Positions 5,518 through 30,939 of a DNA stretch of 64,000 nucleotides are shown here, in pieces; positions within the stretch are counted from its first letter, which is position 1, and the number at the start of each line of letters is the position of its first letter. Both the position numbers and the translations under genes were made by a program. The stretch spans positions 42,115 to 106,114 of the forward strand of contig NZ_JARKOT010000092.1 in the NCBI RefSeq assembly GCF_029977985.1, read 5' to 3'. This DNA is from Propioniciclava sp. (GTDB lineage: Bacteria; Actinomycetota; Actinomycetes; Propionibacteriales; Propionibacteriaceae). The notes beneath the pieces are model-generated. The model saw only the letters and a list, made by a program, of their open reading frames with translations, did no database searches and had not been told where the DNA came from.

Positions 5518-5634
5518 ACGCCGCTTGGGCGCATCCACGCCGGATCAGTGCAGAAACGCCGGTTGGGCTGGAGGGCACGCCGCTTGGGTGCAGAAACGCC
5601 GGGTGTGCGCGGCGTATCTGCACCCAAGCGGCGT
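5518..5634. repeat. Palindromic intergenic repeat (ACGCCGCTTGGGTGCAGA family)
   Basis: ACGCCGCTTGGGTGCAGA (5577-5594) is perfectly inverted at 5617-5634. Pairing continues inward with one mismatch to an 8-nt loop at 5602-5609, giving a 25-bp stem. A degenerate direct copy of the left arm precedes it (ACGCCGCTTGGG at 5518, GTGCAGAAACGCCGG around 5549). The hairpin ends 29 bp after the stop of the interrupted membrane gene, so it may act as a terminator, but it lacks a T-run. Confidence 0.75.
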
Positions 5635-5663
5635 GGTTGGCTGGGGAGCCCTCCAGGAGGGCG

Positions 5664-22782: not shown

Positions 22783-24609
22783 GTGGCCGCCGTGCCTGCC
22801 GTTCGCCCCTCCCCACAAGCGGGAATGGGAGCGGTTCCGGACGACGGGGGCGTCACGTTCCGCGTGTGGGCGCCGAACGCACGCCACGTCGCCGTCATCG
22901 GCGACTTCTGCGACTGGCAGACCACCCGCAAGCAGATGCTCGCGCCCGACAACGCCCGGTCGGGCACGTGGTCGGCGTTCGTGCCGGGGGCTGTACCGGG
23001 CACCGAGTACCGCTTCCTGATCCGTCGGGGAGGGCCGTACCTGTGGCGCATGGATCCGTACGGCCGCCAGGTCACCGGGTCGCGGGGCAACTCGGTCGTG
23101 TTCGACCCGGCGTCGCTGGACTGGGGGTCCGACGCCTACGTCTCGCCCGGGTGGGACGAGATCGTCCTCTACGAGTTGCACGTCGGGACCTTCGCGGCGG
23201 ACGCCCGCGGTGCGGGCACGTTCGACAAGGCGATCGGCCGGCTGGAGCACTTGGCGTGGCTGGGCGTCAACGCGGTGGAGGTGATGCCGCCGTTCGAGTT
23301 CGCCGGAACGGTCAGCTGGGGCTACAACCCGTCGCACGTGTTCGCGATCGAGTCGTCCTACGGCGGGCCGCACGCGTTCGCCCGGTTCGTGCGGGAGGCC
23401 CACCGGCTGGGCATCGCCGTGTTCCTCGACGTCGTGCACAACCACCTCGGCCCTACCGACCTCGATCTCTGGCGGTTCGACGGCTGGCGCAAGGGCGGCT
23501 GGGGCGGCGTCTACTTCTACAACGACCGCCGCGCCCTGACGCCGTGGGGGGCGACGCGCCCCGACTACGGGCGCTCGCAGGTGCGCCGGTTCCTGCGCGA
23601 CTCGGCGGTCATGTGGCTAGAGGACTTCCGCGTCGACGGGTTGCGCTTCGACGGCACGAACTTCATCCGGTCTCGCTGGGGGGACACGCGCGACCCGGCG
23701 GCGTATTTGCGCGGCGGCCACGCGTACCTGGCGGCGCTCACCGCCGACCTGCGCGAACGGCAGCCGTGGAAGCTGCTCGTCGCGGAGGACATGCAGCTCG
23801 ACCCGGTCGTGACGCGGTCGTCGGCGGCTGGCGGGTTGGGCTTCCATGCGCAGTGGGACGCCGGCTTCGTCCACCCGGTGCGTGCGGCGCTGGAGACGCC
23901 GCGCGACGAGGACCGCAACCTGTACGCCGTCGCCCACGCGTGGCTGGGCCACTATCTTTCGGCGCCCCACGAGCGGGTGGTGTTCACCGAGAGCCACGAC
24001 GAGGTGGCCAACGGCCGGTCGCGGCTGCCGGAGACGATCACGCCGGGAGCGGCCGATTCGTGGCACGCGCGCAAGCGATCGGCACTCGGGTTGGCGTTGA
24101 CGCTCACCGCCGTCGGGTTGCCGATGCTGTTCCAGGGCCAGGAGTTCTGCGAGGACCAGTGGTTCTCCGATCGCCGGGCACTGTCGTGGGAGAAGGGCAA
24201 CCACCACCACGGGTTCTTGCTGCTGGTGCGCGACCTCGTGCGGCTGCGCCGCAACGTCGATCGCACGACGGGCGGCCTGCACGGCCCGCACGCGAAGATC
24301 CTGCGCGTCGACCCCCACCACGGCGTCCTCGTCCTGCACCGATGGCACCGCGGCGGCCCCGGCGACGACACGATCGTCGTGGTCAACCTCTCCACGCGCA
24401 CGCACGGCCACTACCCCGTCGGGTTCCCGGCGTCCGGTCGCTGGCGCCTCCGCGTCAACACGGACGCCCCCACCTACGGCCCCGACTTCGGCGCCGTGGT
24501 CACCACCGACGTGGACGCGACGAACTGGTGGTGCGACGGCTACCCCGCCGGCTCCCACGTCGCCCTGGGCCCGTACACGGCGTTGGTCTTCTCCCAGGAT
24601 CCCGCCTGA
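22783..24609 (+). CDS. GH13 family enzyme, glycogen-branching/trehalohydrolase-like
   Basis: A 608-aa alpha-amylase superfamily protein. An N-terminal CBM48-like domain (about residues 20-100, VTFRVWAPNARHVAVIGDF) leads into the barrel with YELHVGTFAADARGAGTF and FLDVVHNHLGP. The nucleophile region is DGLRFDGT, the acid/base LLVAEDMQ, and the third Asp FTESHDEV. MLFQGQEFCED is common in branching enzymes. The length is shorter than classic GlgB and near TreZ, so the exact reaction is open. GTG 22783 and GTG 22792 are both possible starts; no clear ribosome binding site decides. It ends 9 bp before palindrome A. Confidence 0.82.
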   Translation: MAAVPAVRPSPQAGMGAVPDDGGVTFRVWAPNARHVAVIGDFCDWQTTRKQMLAPDNARSGTWSAFVPGAVPGTEYRFLIRRGGPYLWRMDPYGRQVTGSRGNSVVFDPASLDWGSDAYVSPGWDEIVLYELHVGTFAADARGAGTFDKAIGRLEHLAWLGVNAVEVMPPFEFAGTVSWGYNPSHVFAIESSYGGPHAFARFVREAHRLGIAVFLDVVHNHLGPTDLDLWRFDGWRKGGWGGVYFYNDRRALTPWGATRPDYGRSQVRRFLRDSAVMWLEDFRVDGLRFDGTNFIRSRWGDTRDPAAYLRGGHAYLAALTADLRERQPWKLLVAEDMQLDPVVTRSSAAGGLGFHAQWDAGFVHPVRAALETPRDEDRNLYAVAHAWLGHYLSAPHERVVFTESHDEVANGRSRLPETITPGAADSWHARKRSALGLALTLTAVGLPMLFQGQEFCEDQWFSDRRALSWEKGNHHHGFLLLVRDLVRLRRNVDRTTGGLHGPHAKILRVDPHHGVLVLHRWHRGGPGDDTIVVVNLSTRTHGHYPVGFPASGRWRLRVNTDAPTYGPDFGAVVTTDVDATNWWCDGYPAGSHVALGPYTALVFSQDPA

Positions 24610-24618
24610 CTCTCCCCG

Positions 24619-24738
24619 CCCGTGTGGCAGTTGGGGACCACCCCCGTGTGGCGGTTGGGGCTCACGTTTGGAGCGCTGCAGCGCCCTCTTCGTGAGCCCC
24701 GACTGTCGCACGGGGGTGGTCCCCAACCGTCGCACGGG
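24619..24738. repeat. 120-bp palindrome A, left boundary of the first AbiEi-like gene
   Basis: An imperfect palindrome centred on GCGCTGCAGCGC (24673-24684) with 60-bp arms. Each arm holds two units of the form CCCGTGYGRCRGTTGGGGAC. The arms differ in detail (GTTTGG beside the centre on the left, CGAAGAGG-type on the right). Element B at 25847-25966 has the same length and centre but the arms swapped, so A and B are inverted copies. A begins 9 bp after the GH13 stop codon. Short ORFs in it (such as MWQLGTTPVWRLGLTF) are spurious. Confidence 0.9.
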
Positions 24739-24772
24739 GCAGGGAAGCCGAACCGGCGGCGTCCGACGGGCC

Positions 24773-24859
24773 TGTGGACAACGCACCCGAGCCCCAGAAG
24801 TTGTCCACAATCTGCCTCATCGTGACGGATTCGGGCCTCTGCGGGCGAATGTGAAGGGC
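24773..24859 (+). promoter_or_regulatory. Leader of the first AbiEi-like gene with two inverted DnaA-box-like 9-mers
   Basis: TGTGGACAA (24773-24781) and its inverse TTGTCCACA (24801-24809) are separated by 19 bp. The second box is 50 bp from the GTG start. Between them and the gene lie CGTGACGGATTCGG and GGGCGAATGTGA, both exactly conserved upstream of the paralogue at 29.8-30.8 kb. TTGTCCACA equals the high-GC actinobacterial DnaA box. Confidence 0.75.
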
Positions 24860-25819
24860 GTGAACGACAACGGCTTTCCCGACCTGCCGCACCAGCGCGG
24901 CTTCGCGACCCGGCGCCAGCTTCTGGACGCCGGATCCACCCCCTCCGCGCTCCGCCAGCTGTCGCGGAACGGGCACCACGTCGCCCGGGCGGTCTACGGC
25001 GCCGACGGGGGCGCCCTACGGGAGGAGGATCGCGTGATCGCCGGCTACCTGTGGGCCGGCAAGAGCGCGGTGCTGACCGGAGTCAATGCCCTCATCCGCC
25101 TCGGCATCGCGGTGCCCCGGCCGGCCACGGTGATCTGTTTCCTCGTGGTGGCGGGGGCCCGCAACAGGCGACACATCCAGGGCTTCCGCACCATCCGCAC
25201 CCGGCGTCCCCCCAAGGCTCGCCCGCGCTACGGCGTCCCGACCGCCCCCATCGAACGCGCTCTCGCCGATGCGGGGCGGCATCGCGAGTTGACGGCGTCC
25301 GAGCTGAAGGGCCTGACGATCGCCGTGCTGCAACGGCGCCTCACCACGCCCGAGCGCCTCGTTGCCGAGCTCGAGGCGGGCGGCACCCTCGGCGTCACCG
25401 GCGTGCGACAAGGGCTGATGGCTTTCTGTGACGGGTCGTGGTCGGTGCCGGAGGCGACGCTCGCCGGAGCCGTCGCAGAACACTCCGACCTGCCGGTCAT
25501 GCTGGCCAACCCCACACTCCTGGACGCCGCCGGTGCGGTCATCGGCGTCCCGGACGGGTACTTCCCGGACGCCGGCGTCGTCGTCCAGGTCCATTCCCGC
25601 GCCTACCACGACGGGGTCACCGATGACGGTGACGACCGGTGGACCGCAACGGTCGAGGGGGACCTCCGCTACCCCGAGCACGGGCTCCTCGTCGTGCCCG
25701 TCACCCCCGAGACCCTGCGCGACTCCCTCCCCGGCTTCCTCGATTCGCTCGCCGCGATCCTGGCTACCCGCGATGGCCCGGCACCGAACGTCTTCGTTCG
25801 GACGCCCCCCGCCGCGTGA
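24860..25819 (+). CDS. Orphan AbiEi-like HTH protein with degenerate Vsr/DUF559-type C-terminus (copy 1)
   Basis: A 319-aa protein. Residues about 8-45 (GFATRRQLLDAGSTPSALRQ) resemble the AbiEi antitoxin N-terminal HTH. The middle carries LTASELKGLTIAVLQRRLTT. The C-terminus (GVPDGYFPDAGVVVQVHSRA, then YHDG) looks like the PD-(D/E)XK core of DUF559/Vsr proteins, with Gln-Val-His where Glu-x-Asp/Lys is usual, so it may be catalytically dead. GTG 24860 is chosen because the start context GAATGTGA-GGG-N-GTGA is conserved in the paralogue, where GTG 24851 would be out of register. No AbiEii toxin is adjacent. It is bounded by palindromes A and B. Function is unknown. Confidence 0.65.
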   Translation: MNDNGFPDLPHQRGFATRRQLLDAGSTPSALRQLSRNGHHVARAVYGADGGALREEDRVIAGYLWAGKSAVLTGVNALIRLGIAVPRPATVICFLVVAGARNRRHIQGFRTIRTRRPPKARPRYGVPTAPIERALADAGRHRELTASELKGLTIAVLQRRLTTPERLVAELEAGGTLGVTGVRQGLMAFCDGSWSVPEATLAGAVAEHSDLPVMLANPTLLDAAGAVIGVPDGYFPDAGVVVQVHSRAYHDGVTDDGDDRWTATVEGDLRYPEHGLLVVPVTPETLRDSLPGFLDSLAAILATRDGPAPNVFVRTPPAA

Positions 25820-25846
25820 CGCCCAAACCCCCGCCCACCCTGCCTC

Positions 25847-25966
25847 CCTGTGTGGCAGTTGGGGACCCCCCCCGTGCGACAGTCGGGGCTCACGAAGAGG
25901 GCGCTGCAGCGCCCAAACCGTCTGCCCCAACCGCCACAGGGGGGTGGTCATCAACTGCCACACGGG
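25847..25966. repeat. 120-bp palindrome B, right boundary of the first AbiEi-like gene
   Basis: Same length and centre (GCGCTGCAGCGC, 25901-25912) as element A, in inverted orientation: the left arm ends CACGAAGAGG and the right arm begins CCAAACCG. It starts 27 bp after the AbiEi-like stop and ends 9 bp from the mmdB stop codon. Translations of A(+) and B(-) are nearly the same peptide (ALQRPLREPRLSHGGGPQ), confirming the inverted relationship. It could terminate transcription from both sides. Confidence 0.9.
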
Positions 25967-25975
25967 CGGAGAGGA

Positions 25976-27097
25976 TCAGGCGGTGCCCATCAACGCCAAC
26001 AGGACGCCACCGGCGACGACGGAGGCCACTTGGCCCGCGGCGTTGGCGCCCATGGCGTGCATCAGCAGGAAGTTGTCGAAGCTCTCTCGTTGCGCTTCGC
26101 GCTGGACGACCCGCGCGGCCATGGGGAATGCGGAGATGCCCGCCGCCCCGATGAGGGGGTTGAACTTGCCGCCCGAGACCACGTTCATCACCTTGCCGAA
26201 CAGGACTCCCATGACGGTGTCCAGGCAGAAGGCGATCAGGCCGAGCACGAGGATCATCAGCGTCGCCACGTTGAGGAAGCGTTCGCCGATCATGGTCGAG
26301 CCGATGGCGAGGCCGAGGAAAAGGGTCACCACGTTCGCCAGTTCGTTCGAGGACGCCCCGACGAGCCGCTCCACCACCTTCGATTCCCGCATCAGGTTGC
26401 CCAGCATCAGCATGCCGATCAGCGGCGTCGCAAAGGGCACCAGGGTGCCCACGACGATGGTGACGATGATGGGGAACAGGATCCGTGTCCGTTGGCTGAT
26501 CTCCCGGCTCGTGTACGGCATGCGGATGGCGCGCTCCTTGGGCGTCGTCAGCGCTCGCATGATCGGCGGCATGATGATGGGCACGAGGCTCATGTACGAG
26601 TAGGCGGCGACCGTAATCGGCGGCACCAGGTCGGGGGCGAGTTTGTTGGAGACGTAGATCGACGTGGGCCCGTCGATGGCTCCGATGATGCCGATGGACG
26701 CCGCCTCGTTCTGACTGAAGCCGAGCAGCAGAGCGAGGAGCAGGGTCAGGAAGATGCCGAACTGCCCCGCCGCGCCGAGGAGCACCATCTTGGGGTTCTC
26801 GAGCAGCGGCCCGAAGTCGGTCATGGCTCCGATACCGACGAAGATGAGCAGGGGGAACAGCTCGTTCGCCACGCCCATCTCGTACAGCACGGTCAGCGCA
26901 CCCTCCTCACCCACCATCGGCGAGAGGGGCAGGTTGGCGAGGATCGCCCCGGCGCCGATCGGCAGGAGCAGCAGCGGCTCGTACTCCTTCTTCACGGCCA
27001 GCCAGACGAGCAGCAGCCCGACCGCGATCATGGTCAGGCTCTGCCACGTGACGTTCAGGATCCCCTGCAGGAGGTAGTGGAGGGTGTCCGGGTTCAT
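25976..27097 (-). CDS. mmdB: Na+-translocating decarboxylase beta subunit (MmdB/OadB)
   Basis: The membrane subunit of a biotin-dependent sodium-pump decarboxylase. It takes CO2 off carboxybiotin and exports Na+. It has 373 aa with about nine to eleven helices. Family motifs are GIGAMTDFGPLLENP, IGAIDGPTSIYVSNKLAP (membrane Asp), and GGKFNPLIGAAGISAFPMAARV at the C-terminus. The start overlaps the biotin-carrier stop (TGATG). It is the last gene of mmdA-gamma-biotin-beta. The carboxyltransferase homology points to methylmalonyl-CoA and not oxaloacetate. Confidence 0.93.
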   Translation of the reverse strand: MNPDTLHYLLQGILNVTWQSLTMIAVGLLLVWLAVKKEYEPLLLLPIGAGAILANLPLSPMVGEEGALTVLYEMGVANELFPLLIFVGIGAMTDFGPLLENPKMVLLGAAGQFGIFLTLLLALLLGFSQNEAASIGIIGAIDGPTSIYVSNKLAPDLVPPITVAAYSYMSLVPIIMPPIMRALTTPKERAIRMPYTSREISQRTRILFPIIVTIVVGTLVPFATPLIGMLMLGNLMRESKVVERLVGASSNELANVVTLFLGLAIGSTMIGERFLNVATLMILVLGLIAFCLDTVMGVLFGKVMNVVSGGKFNPLIGAAGISAFPMAARVVQREAQRESFDNFLLMHAMGANAAGQVASVVAGGVLLALMGTA

Positions 27098-29578: not shown

Positions 29579-29789
29579 TGGTCCTCACCTCACGGCGCCG
29601 CGGTCGTCGCGGCGCGATGACGCGCACCGTAGCACGCCCTCCGGACACTCCCCACCAGCGCCTGTCCCGCACACCCCTCGGACGCCGCAGGCGCCCCTCG
29701 TTGCCCCTCGGCCGCGCCGGGGCCGGCCCGCCTGGTTCCCGGACAAGCCGGGCCCGTCCCGCGCCCCCTGAGATGCACCGGGGCGGCAC

Positions 29790-29853
29790 GTGTGCAACCC
29801 CGTGCTGCGCAAGGCGTGCGAGGGCACCGGTTAGGCAGCACGGACGCGCACAC
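29790..29853. repeat. 64-bp palindromic repeat C at the 3' end of the second AbiEi-like gene
   Basis: It begins GTGTGC, ends GCACAC, and is imperfectly palindromic (CCGTGCTGC ... GCAGCACGG). It matches repeat D (30876-30939) at about 53 of 64 positions in the same orientation. It includes the stop codon and the last seven or so codons of the AbiEi-like gene. The 210 bp between it and mmdA hold no recognisable gene. Confidence 0.8.
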
Positions 29854-30784
29854 GGTCGCCCGCACCGGAACCGCGCCCGTCCACGATCGCGACGAGGCCC
29901 TCGAGGTAGGCGTCCAGCCGGTCCCGGATCGTCTCGGGGGTCACCGGAACCACCACGAGGCCGTGGTAGGTGTACTCGTTGTCCCGTTCCACCGTCGCGG
30001 CCCACTGGTCGTTCCCCTCGAGGTCCACGCCGTCGTGGTAGGCGCGCGAGTGCACCTGGACGACCACGCCGGCGTCCGGGAAGAACCCGTCGGGCACGCC
30101 GATGAACTCCCCCGCGAGGGTCTCGAGCCGCGGGTTGGCCAGCATGGGCGGGAGGTCGGCGCAGCGCTCGACGGCGTCCTGCAGCACCGCCTCGGGCACG
30201 GACCACGCCCCCGCCCGGTGGGCCAGCACCCCGTCGCGGACCCCGGCGACCCCCGCGTTCCACCCGCCCTCGAGTTCGGTGGCGAGCCGGTCGTCGGTGC
30301 TCAGGCGCCGCTGGAGCACGGCGAGTGTGAGGCCCTTCAGCTCGGCCCGCGTGAACTCGGCGAAGCGTCCGGCGTCCACGAGAGCCCGCTCGAGCGACGC
30401 CACCCGGACGCCGCCGCGCACCATCGTCGCCGGCATCGACCGCGTGCGGACCGTGACGTACCCGCGAGCGCTGCGCCGTGAGCGGTGGCTGGCCGGCACG
30501 AGGAAGCGGGTGGCGACGGGAGCCCGCGGCAGCTCCACCCCGTGCAGGGCGAGCGCGCGGGCGCCGGTGAGGGCGGCCCGGGGACCGGCCCACAGGAGCC
30601 CCGCCATGAGCAGCACGTCCGCCGACCACGGCCCCTTCGTGGGTGCGTAGACCCCCCGGACGACGCGGCGCCCGGTGGCAGCCAAGTGGGTCAGGGCGTC
30701 CGGGGTAGTGCCGGCTTGCTTGAGTTGGAGGGCAGTGGCGAGGCCGCACTGGCCCCCGACCTCCGGGAATCTGCAGGTGCTCAC
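29831..30784 (-). CDS. Orphan AbiEi-like HTH protein with degenerate Vsr/DUF559-type C-terminus (copy 2)
   Basis: A 317-aa paralogue of the 24860-25819 product, roughly half identical by eye along its whole length. Shared stretches are ELKGLTLAVLQRRLSTDDRL, PDGFFPDAGVVVQVHSRAYH (again Q-V-H in place of an acidic active-site residue) and LVVVPVTPETIRD. Copy 1's HTH is partly retained. The start is GTG 30784, matched to copy 1 by the conserved leader. No toxin partner is next to it. It lies beyond the 5' end of mmdA, in the same direction, between repeats C and D. A role as a defence-related or DNA-binding protein is speculation. Confidence 0.65.
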   Translation of the reverse strand: MSTCRFPEVGGQCGLATALQLKQAGTTPDALTHLAATGRRVVRGVYAPTKGPWSADVLLMAGLLWAGPRAALTGARALALHGVELPRAPVATRFLVPASHRSRRSARGYVTVRTRSMPATMVRGGVRVASLERALVDAGRFAEFTRAELKGLTLAVLQRRLSTDDRLATELEGGWNAGVAGVRDGVLAHRAGAWSVPEAVLQDAVERCADLPPMLANPRLETLAGEFIGVPDGFFPDAGVVVQVHSRAYHDGVDLEGNDQWAATVERDNEYTYHGLVVVPVTPETIRDRLDAYLEGLVAIVDGRGSGAGDRVRVRAA

Positions 30785-30860: not shown

Positions 30861-30875
30861 CCGCCGGGGACGAGC

Positions 30876-30939
30876 GTGTGCGGCTCCGTGCTGCGCAAGG
30901 CGTGCCAGGGCACTGGTTTGGTAGCGAGGGCCCGCACAC
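30876..30939. repeat. 64-bp palindromic repeat D upstream of the second AbiEi-like gene
   Basis: GTGTGCGG ... CCGCACAC with GTGC-CAGG-GCAC at the exact centre. It is a direct copy of repeat C at about 83% identity. It lies 15 bp beyond the distal DnaA-like box. The 82 bp from here to the DUF456 gene stop contain no recognisable element. Confidence 0.8.

Follow-up and report, generated by a model that had tools for sequence, protein, structure and literature searches.

Two 120-bp palindromes, A and B, flank a gene for an AbiEi-like protein (copy 1) in the window, a stretch of 64,000 nucleotides from Propioniciclava sp., and the question raised by this arrangement is whether the gene merely lies between two dispersed hairpins or belongs with them. 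As a sequence-only reading of the locus had described, each palindrome is built of two abutting 60-nt arms around the same centre, GCGCTGCAGCGC. They are real palindromes but imperfect ones, with an arm complementarity of 80% in A and 75% in B, and the folds of the single strands lie 8.6 to 13.5 s.d. below those of shuffled sequences. The pair does form an inverted repeat of palindromes, also as had been read: A shares 89% identity with B in reverse complement, against 77.5% in direct orientation, and the longest exact match is 44 bp. The BLAST match of A to the reverse complement of B covers 138 bp at 88%, a length that takes in 17 bp of outer flank, partly stop-codon context, where the match could be due to chance. 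Among the copies compared, the best partner of B is A (score 188; next 140).

Table. Features of the copy 1 and copy 2 loci, in window coordinates.
Feature	Position	Strand	Remarks
GH13 / GlgB-TreZ-like glycosidase	22783..24609	+	stop 24609, 9 bp before A
Palindrome A, upstream bracket, family-1 dispersed palindrome	24619..24738	.	120 bp; arms are two 19-24 bp units around GCGCTGCAGCGC
Leader of AbiEi-like gene	24739..24850	+	inverted pair TGTGGACAAC (24773-24782) / GTTGTCCACA (24800-24809)
AbiEi-like gene copy 1	24851..25819	+	alternative start 24860; AbiEi-type N-terminus and DUF559/Vsr-like C-terminal domain
Palindrome B, downstream bracket, inverted relative to A	25847..25966	.	
mmdB, Na+-translocating decarboxylase beta subunit	25976..27097	-	3′ end 9 bp from B
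Downstream bracket repeat of copy 2	29778..29830	-	also in C155 (twice), C85 and weakly C102 of this assembly
AbiEi-like gene copy 2	29831..30784	-	protein 54% identical to copy 1; between DUF456 gene and mmdA
Upstream bracket repeat of copy 2	30864..30916	-	sequence family other than A/B; 83% direct match to downstream repeat

A and B are not a private pair. In the sequence examined from this Propionibacteriaceae assembly (G000; 3.1 Mb in 296 contigs) we observe about 26 copies of an intergenic palindrome of 75-120 bp, family 1, plus fragments at contig ends, which cut several copies. The family has a core of CCCCGTGTNRCGGTTGGGGCTCACG around GCGCTSSAGCGC, with a variable number of further 19-24 bp units outside it. 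The usual position of a copy is 3-70 bp 3′ of a gene, in some cases between convergent genes, and at least three copies lie between divergent genes; the 9-bp spacings that the sequence-only reading had pointed out on both sides are correct and, given this range, not unusual. By inspection, there is no consistent rule for palindrome orientation relative to the host gene. Selection on the hairpin at the RNA level was not apparent when copies were oriented by gene, as G.U and A.C pairs number 28 to 26 with no strand bias, and Rfam gave sub-threshold matches only, mostly to eukaryotic miRNA models. Inspection of A and B found no GTAG tag in either. Searched with the core pattern and two mismatches allowed, family 1 is found in 0 of 198 other genomes of the bacterial family, 12 congeners included (1/199, G000 only).

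The surroundings of copy 1 differ between G000 and its relatives. Congeners have an M20 peptidase gene and mmdB as their conserved convergent neighbours, and the mmdB site of the congeners examined holds no GH13 gene, no AbiEi-like gene and no A/B palindrome. Hairpins occur 3′ of mmdB there, and they are unrelated to A/B. These observations lend no support to the proposal that a single ancestral palindrome stood between GH13 and mmdB and was duplicated around the gene. A palindrome downstream of mmdB in genome G001 was considered as a shared family and rejected, being single copy in that genome. The only close GH13 homolog (76%) is in G010, on a contig that ends 58 bp past the GH13 stop. Copy 2 is bracketed by a 53-bp direct repeat that is present at a few further sites, in G000 only, and in four relatives the DUF456 gene and mmdA are adjacent, ~135-205 bp apart, with no gene between. 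A TNTCCACA site in the conserved leader, between the upstream palindrome and the gene, recurs upstream of AbiEi-like homologs. Additionally, the inverted TGTGGACAAC / GTTGTCCACA pair lies upstream of the gene here (24773-24809) and in homolog leaders, and TTGTCCACA resembles an actinobacterial DnaA box.

Bracketing by a matched repeat recurs at homologs of the gene and is not confined to this locus. For every close homolog within the genus, the 400 bp on the upstream side were compared with the 400 bp on the downstream side, and a matching repeat was present on both sides, mostly inverted, in 12 of 14 testable homologs. Among ordinary genes of the same genomes 5 of 470 pass this test, and since one of the five is itself AbiEi-like the background is 4/469 (12/14 vs 4/469, Fisher p ~6e-19), so that the inverted pair around copy 1 is meaningful, as had been supposed. 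Examples of the match between the two flanks are 97% over 67 bp (L194 and L200), 85% over 104 bp (L201), 86% over 80 bp (L199) and 82% over 66 bp (L191). The upstream copy ends ~80-170 bp before the start codon and the downstream copy usually starts less than ~70 bp past the stop. The bracket sequence differs between most loci, being matched within each locus and common to orthologous loci. The brackets of copy 2, L202 and L197 match better as direct than as inverted repeats; at L193 a palindrome stands on the upstream side only, and L196 has no matching pair.

The arrangement extends to other genera, where 14 of 24 distant homologs show flank-to-flank similarity at E <= 1e-3, of which L214 and L221 rest on 20-24 bp matches and L223 is borderline, leaving 11/24 clear cases. 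Split by their central motif, in a grouping made post hoc after the data had been seen, 11 of 13 ELDG-type and 2 of 10 EVDG-type distant homologs are bracketed (p 0.003). One homolog, in Rhodococcus ruber NZ_CP145323.1, is bracketed with the same spacing by palindromes that match at 83%, and this palindrome has 6 copies in 74 kb there, whereas the remainder of the 72,556 plasmid records searched has no copy. The record is labelled a plasmid; judged by its serS, pks13, fadD32 and cell-wall arabinosyltransferase genes, it is probably a piece of chromosome.

The association of gene and palindrome goes beyond bracketing to the cognate dispersal of the palindromes, their restriction to gene-bearing genomes, their presence or absence between species and one exchange of a cassette. 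A composite query of ten bracket palindromes other than A/B was searched against 13 genomes of the genus. Most of the ten have copies well beyond the bracket, only in genomes with an AbiEi-like gene, and none matched in 5 of 5 congeners without the gene; all ten were drawn from gene-bearing genomes, which makes the test partly circular, and its independent part is the copies beyond the bracket and the absence elsewhere. In the regions examined, the L193 palindrome occupies 10 sites in G001 and 14 in G012, the L200/L194 palindrome occupies 26 in G012, and counts of 8 and 4 sites were obtained in G009; the assembly of G012, like that of G000, is fragmented. The L196 palindrome is found many times in G010 only and the L202 palindrome many times in G002 only. 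Dispersal is not universal, as the L191 palindrome is found at its own bracket only and the L195 palindrome possibly likewise.

Sites also differ between species. A palindrome of G012 (L292) is missing at the orthologous site of G001, and one of G009 (L264) is missing at the orthologous site in both G001 and G012. These are the two informative empty sites; neither shows a target-site duplication, but their flanks are diverged. Comparison of G012 with G001 gives 9 differences over the 1337 bp of the cassette L194/L200 (~0.7%), and the adjacent genes differ by 6-11%. This low divergence relative to the flanking genes suggests that the whole block, gene and both palindromes together, was recently exchanged horizontally at one site between these two genomes.

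The protein is composed of two parts. PADLOC AbiEi models match the copy 1 protein (1.3e-11), which has an N-terminal AbiEi-type domain, and they match 15 of 15 homologs over the N-terminal part. Pfam and NCBIfam gave no match to copy 1 at E <= 0.01, and PF04480 (DUF559) has no sequence match in it; distant bracketed homologs match both AbiEi_4 and DUF559 (PF04480). The structure model of copy 1 (pLDDT 88.5) matches AbiEi 6y8q in Foldseek (6e-5) and also Rv2827c. When the C-terminal domain was modelled alone (pLDDT 89.1), I-Bth0305I came first and the best 11 matches also included Vsr, TnsA and NGO0050, each of these being weak on its own (E 0.2-0.9). Residues E197, D231, Q242, H244, S245 and H249 (numbered from 24863) are invariant in the homolog alignment. 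In predicted fold and in its acidic/histidine motif the C-terminal domain appears to resemble DUF559, Vsr, EDxHD (I-Bth0305I) and TnsA proteins; however, in the central motif of this clade the E and D of DUF559 are replaced by Q and H, and the putative catalytic activity may therefore be altered. The N-terminal domain is that of the AbiE type IV toxin-antitoxin system (PMC3985639). Unlike AbiE, the gene is solitary, its protein has the added nuclease-type domain and palindromes bracket it; no AbiEii nucleotidyltransferase toxin gene lies beside copy 1, whose neighbours are GH13 and mmdB. No homolog of the protein was found in phages.

REPIN/RAYT systems and REPtrons likewise combine dispersed extragenic palindromes of ~100 bp with a locus-specific gene that is present once and stands between palindromes of its own, an arrangement that each single-copy RAYT has (PMC3116915, PMC3733652). 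As in those systems, several gene/palindrome pairs can coexist in a genome and copies are absent from related genomes. Unlike them, the bracketed protein is AbiEi-DUF559/Vsr-like and not an HUH/Y1 tyrosine transposase, A and B lack GTAG, and the hosts are Actinomycetota. The RAYT tyrosine transposase (PF01797) has 0 matches in G000, and five control genomes were positive. Because architecture and distribution match REPIN/RAYT but PF01797 is absent, we propose that the system functions in a similar way, with the tyrosine transposase replaced by an AbiEi-DUF559 protein, and that the gene and its two palindromes make up one cassette; we give this reading a probability of roughly 0.55. The gene would encode an AbiEi-type DNA-binding domain and a DUF559/Vsr-like nuclease-type domain between copies of its own cognate palindrome. 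The association itself has good support; mobilisation we infer, as recognition and cleavage by the protein followed by a copying step: the protein would recognise the palindrome and most likely nick or cut its hairpin or cruciform form, after which repair would copy the palindrome to new sites. In this way the palindrome could have reached tens of intergenic positions without the gene, for the most part directly 3′ of genes, and the bracket copies could enable the cassette to move horizontally as one piece. Whether a whole REP/REPIN-like class of this kind exists in Actinomycetota, with palindromes propagated by single-copy AbiEi-DUF559/Vsr-like nucleases and not by HUH transposases and with each protein co-evolving with its own palindrome, we regard as an even bet.

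Other explanations can be given for the same observations. If the palindromes were the terminal inverted repeats of a classical small transposon encoding the AbiEi-DUF559 protein, solo palindromes would be MITE-like remnants, and the inverted brackets, the G001/G012 cassette exchange and the clean gene-free site for copy 2 in four relatives would follow. However, each palindrome type has a single gene copy against 10-26 copies of the palindrome, the number of units at the ends is variable, no target-site duplication was observed and orthologous cassettes sit at the same site in three species, so that a transposon of this type seems unlikely to us. The palindromes share with MITEs their short, non-coding, palindromic form, which in MITEs is mobile, but no parent IS with matching ends was found. 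We consider it rather unlikely that the palindromes are bidirectional hairpin terminators or stabilisers of mRNA 3′ ends that have gathered at gene ends, with the AbiEi-like gene merely between two of them. The position of most copies just 3′ of genes, some between convergent genes, the very high stability of the hairpins and the unrelated hairpins 3′ of mmdB in relatives would suit termination; the balance of G.U and A.C pairs, the lack of a U tract and the copies between divergent genes would not. Termination also gives no account of the absence from congeners or of locus-specific matched palindromes on both sides when so few other genes have them. A terminator role and a mobile-repeat role may coexist, but the former does not explain cognate bracketing.

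A homing-type or addiction cassette, in which a Vsr-like nuclease cuts cassette-free alleles and repair copies the cassette in, with the palindromes as insulating terminators and repair boundaries, is a markedly weaker candidate. The EDxHD enzymes form a family of homing endonucleases (PMC3943268), and one of them, I-Bth0305I, ranks first for the C-terminal model; the block of identity between G001 and G012 is limited to the cassette, like a conversion tract; homing alone leaves the dispersal of palindromes without the gene unexplained. Least credible of all is an invertible cassette, in which recombination between A and B would flip the gene as a phase switch. The sequence-only reading had considered such inversion conceivable, and inverted repeats with a 44-bp exact match could in principle recombine, but the orthologous cassette has one orientation in G001, G012 and G009, other tight palindrome pairs in G000 are direct, as some brackets are, and a flip would change little for a gene that comes with its own leader and is flanked by a palindrome at either end.

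The proposed REPIN/RAYT-like system is also close to TIRtrons and TIRYTs (PMC3733652), where a gene is bracketed by long inverted repeats that may in addition form a small dispersed repeat family, but the protein encoded here is unrelated to IS200/RAYT transposases. REPs of the CGTC type have been reported without a dedicated transposase (PMC3733652). A search of open-licence PMC full text for palindromes or flanking repeats in connection with AbiEi or DUF559 yielded no account of a system like this. To our knowledge, wherever the gene that propagates palindromes across a bacterial genome is known, the tie has so far been to tyrosine (HUH) transposases. If our reading is right, a second, unrelated class of protein has the same coupling of gene and palindrome, and this lifestyle would seem to have evolved convergently. 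The solitary AbiEi-DUF559 genes of Actinomycetota would then also have a possible role, and defined gene/palindrome pairs would be open to direct testing.

These genomes contain further repeats. In G009 we observe dispersed tandem arrays of a 22-bp unit, CCGCCGAGGGCTTGGG (for example L146:13810-13899 and L149:1430-2210), with weaker relatives in G001, G006, G007, G012 and G000; they were considered as AbiEi-linked repeats and set aside, as no tie to an AbiEi-like gene was made. Among the commonest 14-mers in samples of G000, G001 and G009 are those with GGACGCCG / CGGCGTCC, which often adjoin palindromes. Contigs C81 and C2 of G000 have ~119 bp in common, flank plus palindrome (L108:3863-3981 and L109:1-119), and then diverge, reflecting either an assembly branch or a strain-level junction at the palindrome. 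Additionally, G000 has a second family of long palindromes (CACGCCGCTTGGGTGCAGAAACGCCG...), at window positions 5576-5635, L173:17325-17384 and L180:16221-16282, and a third whose members have GATTCGGACCTCCCGACT in common, at L181:11758-11827 and L174:14301-14352.
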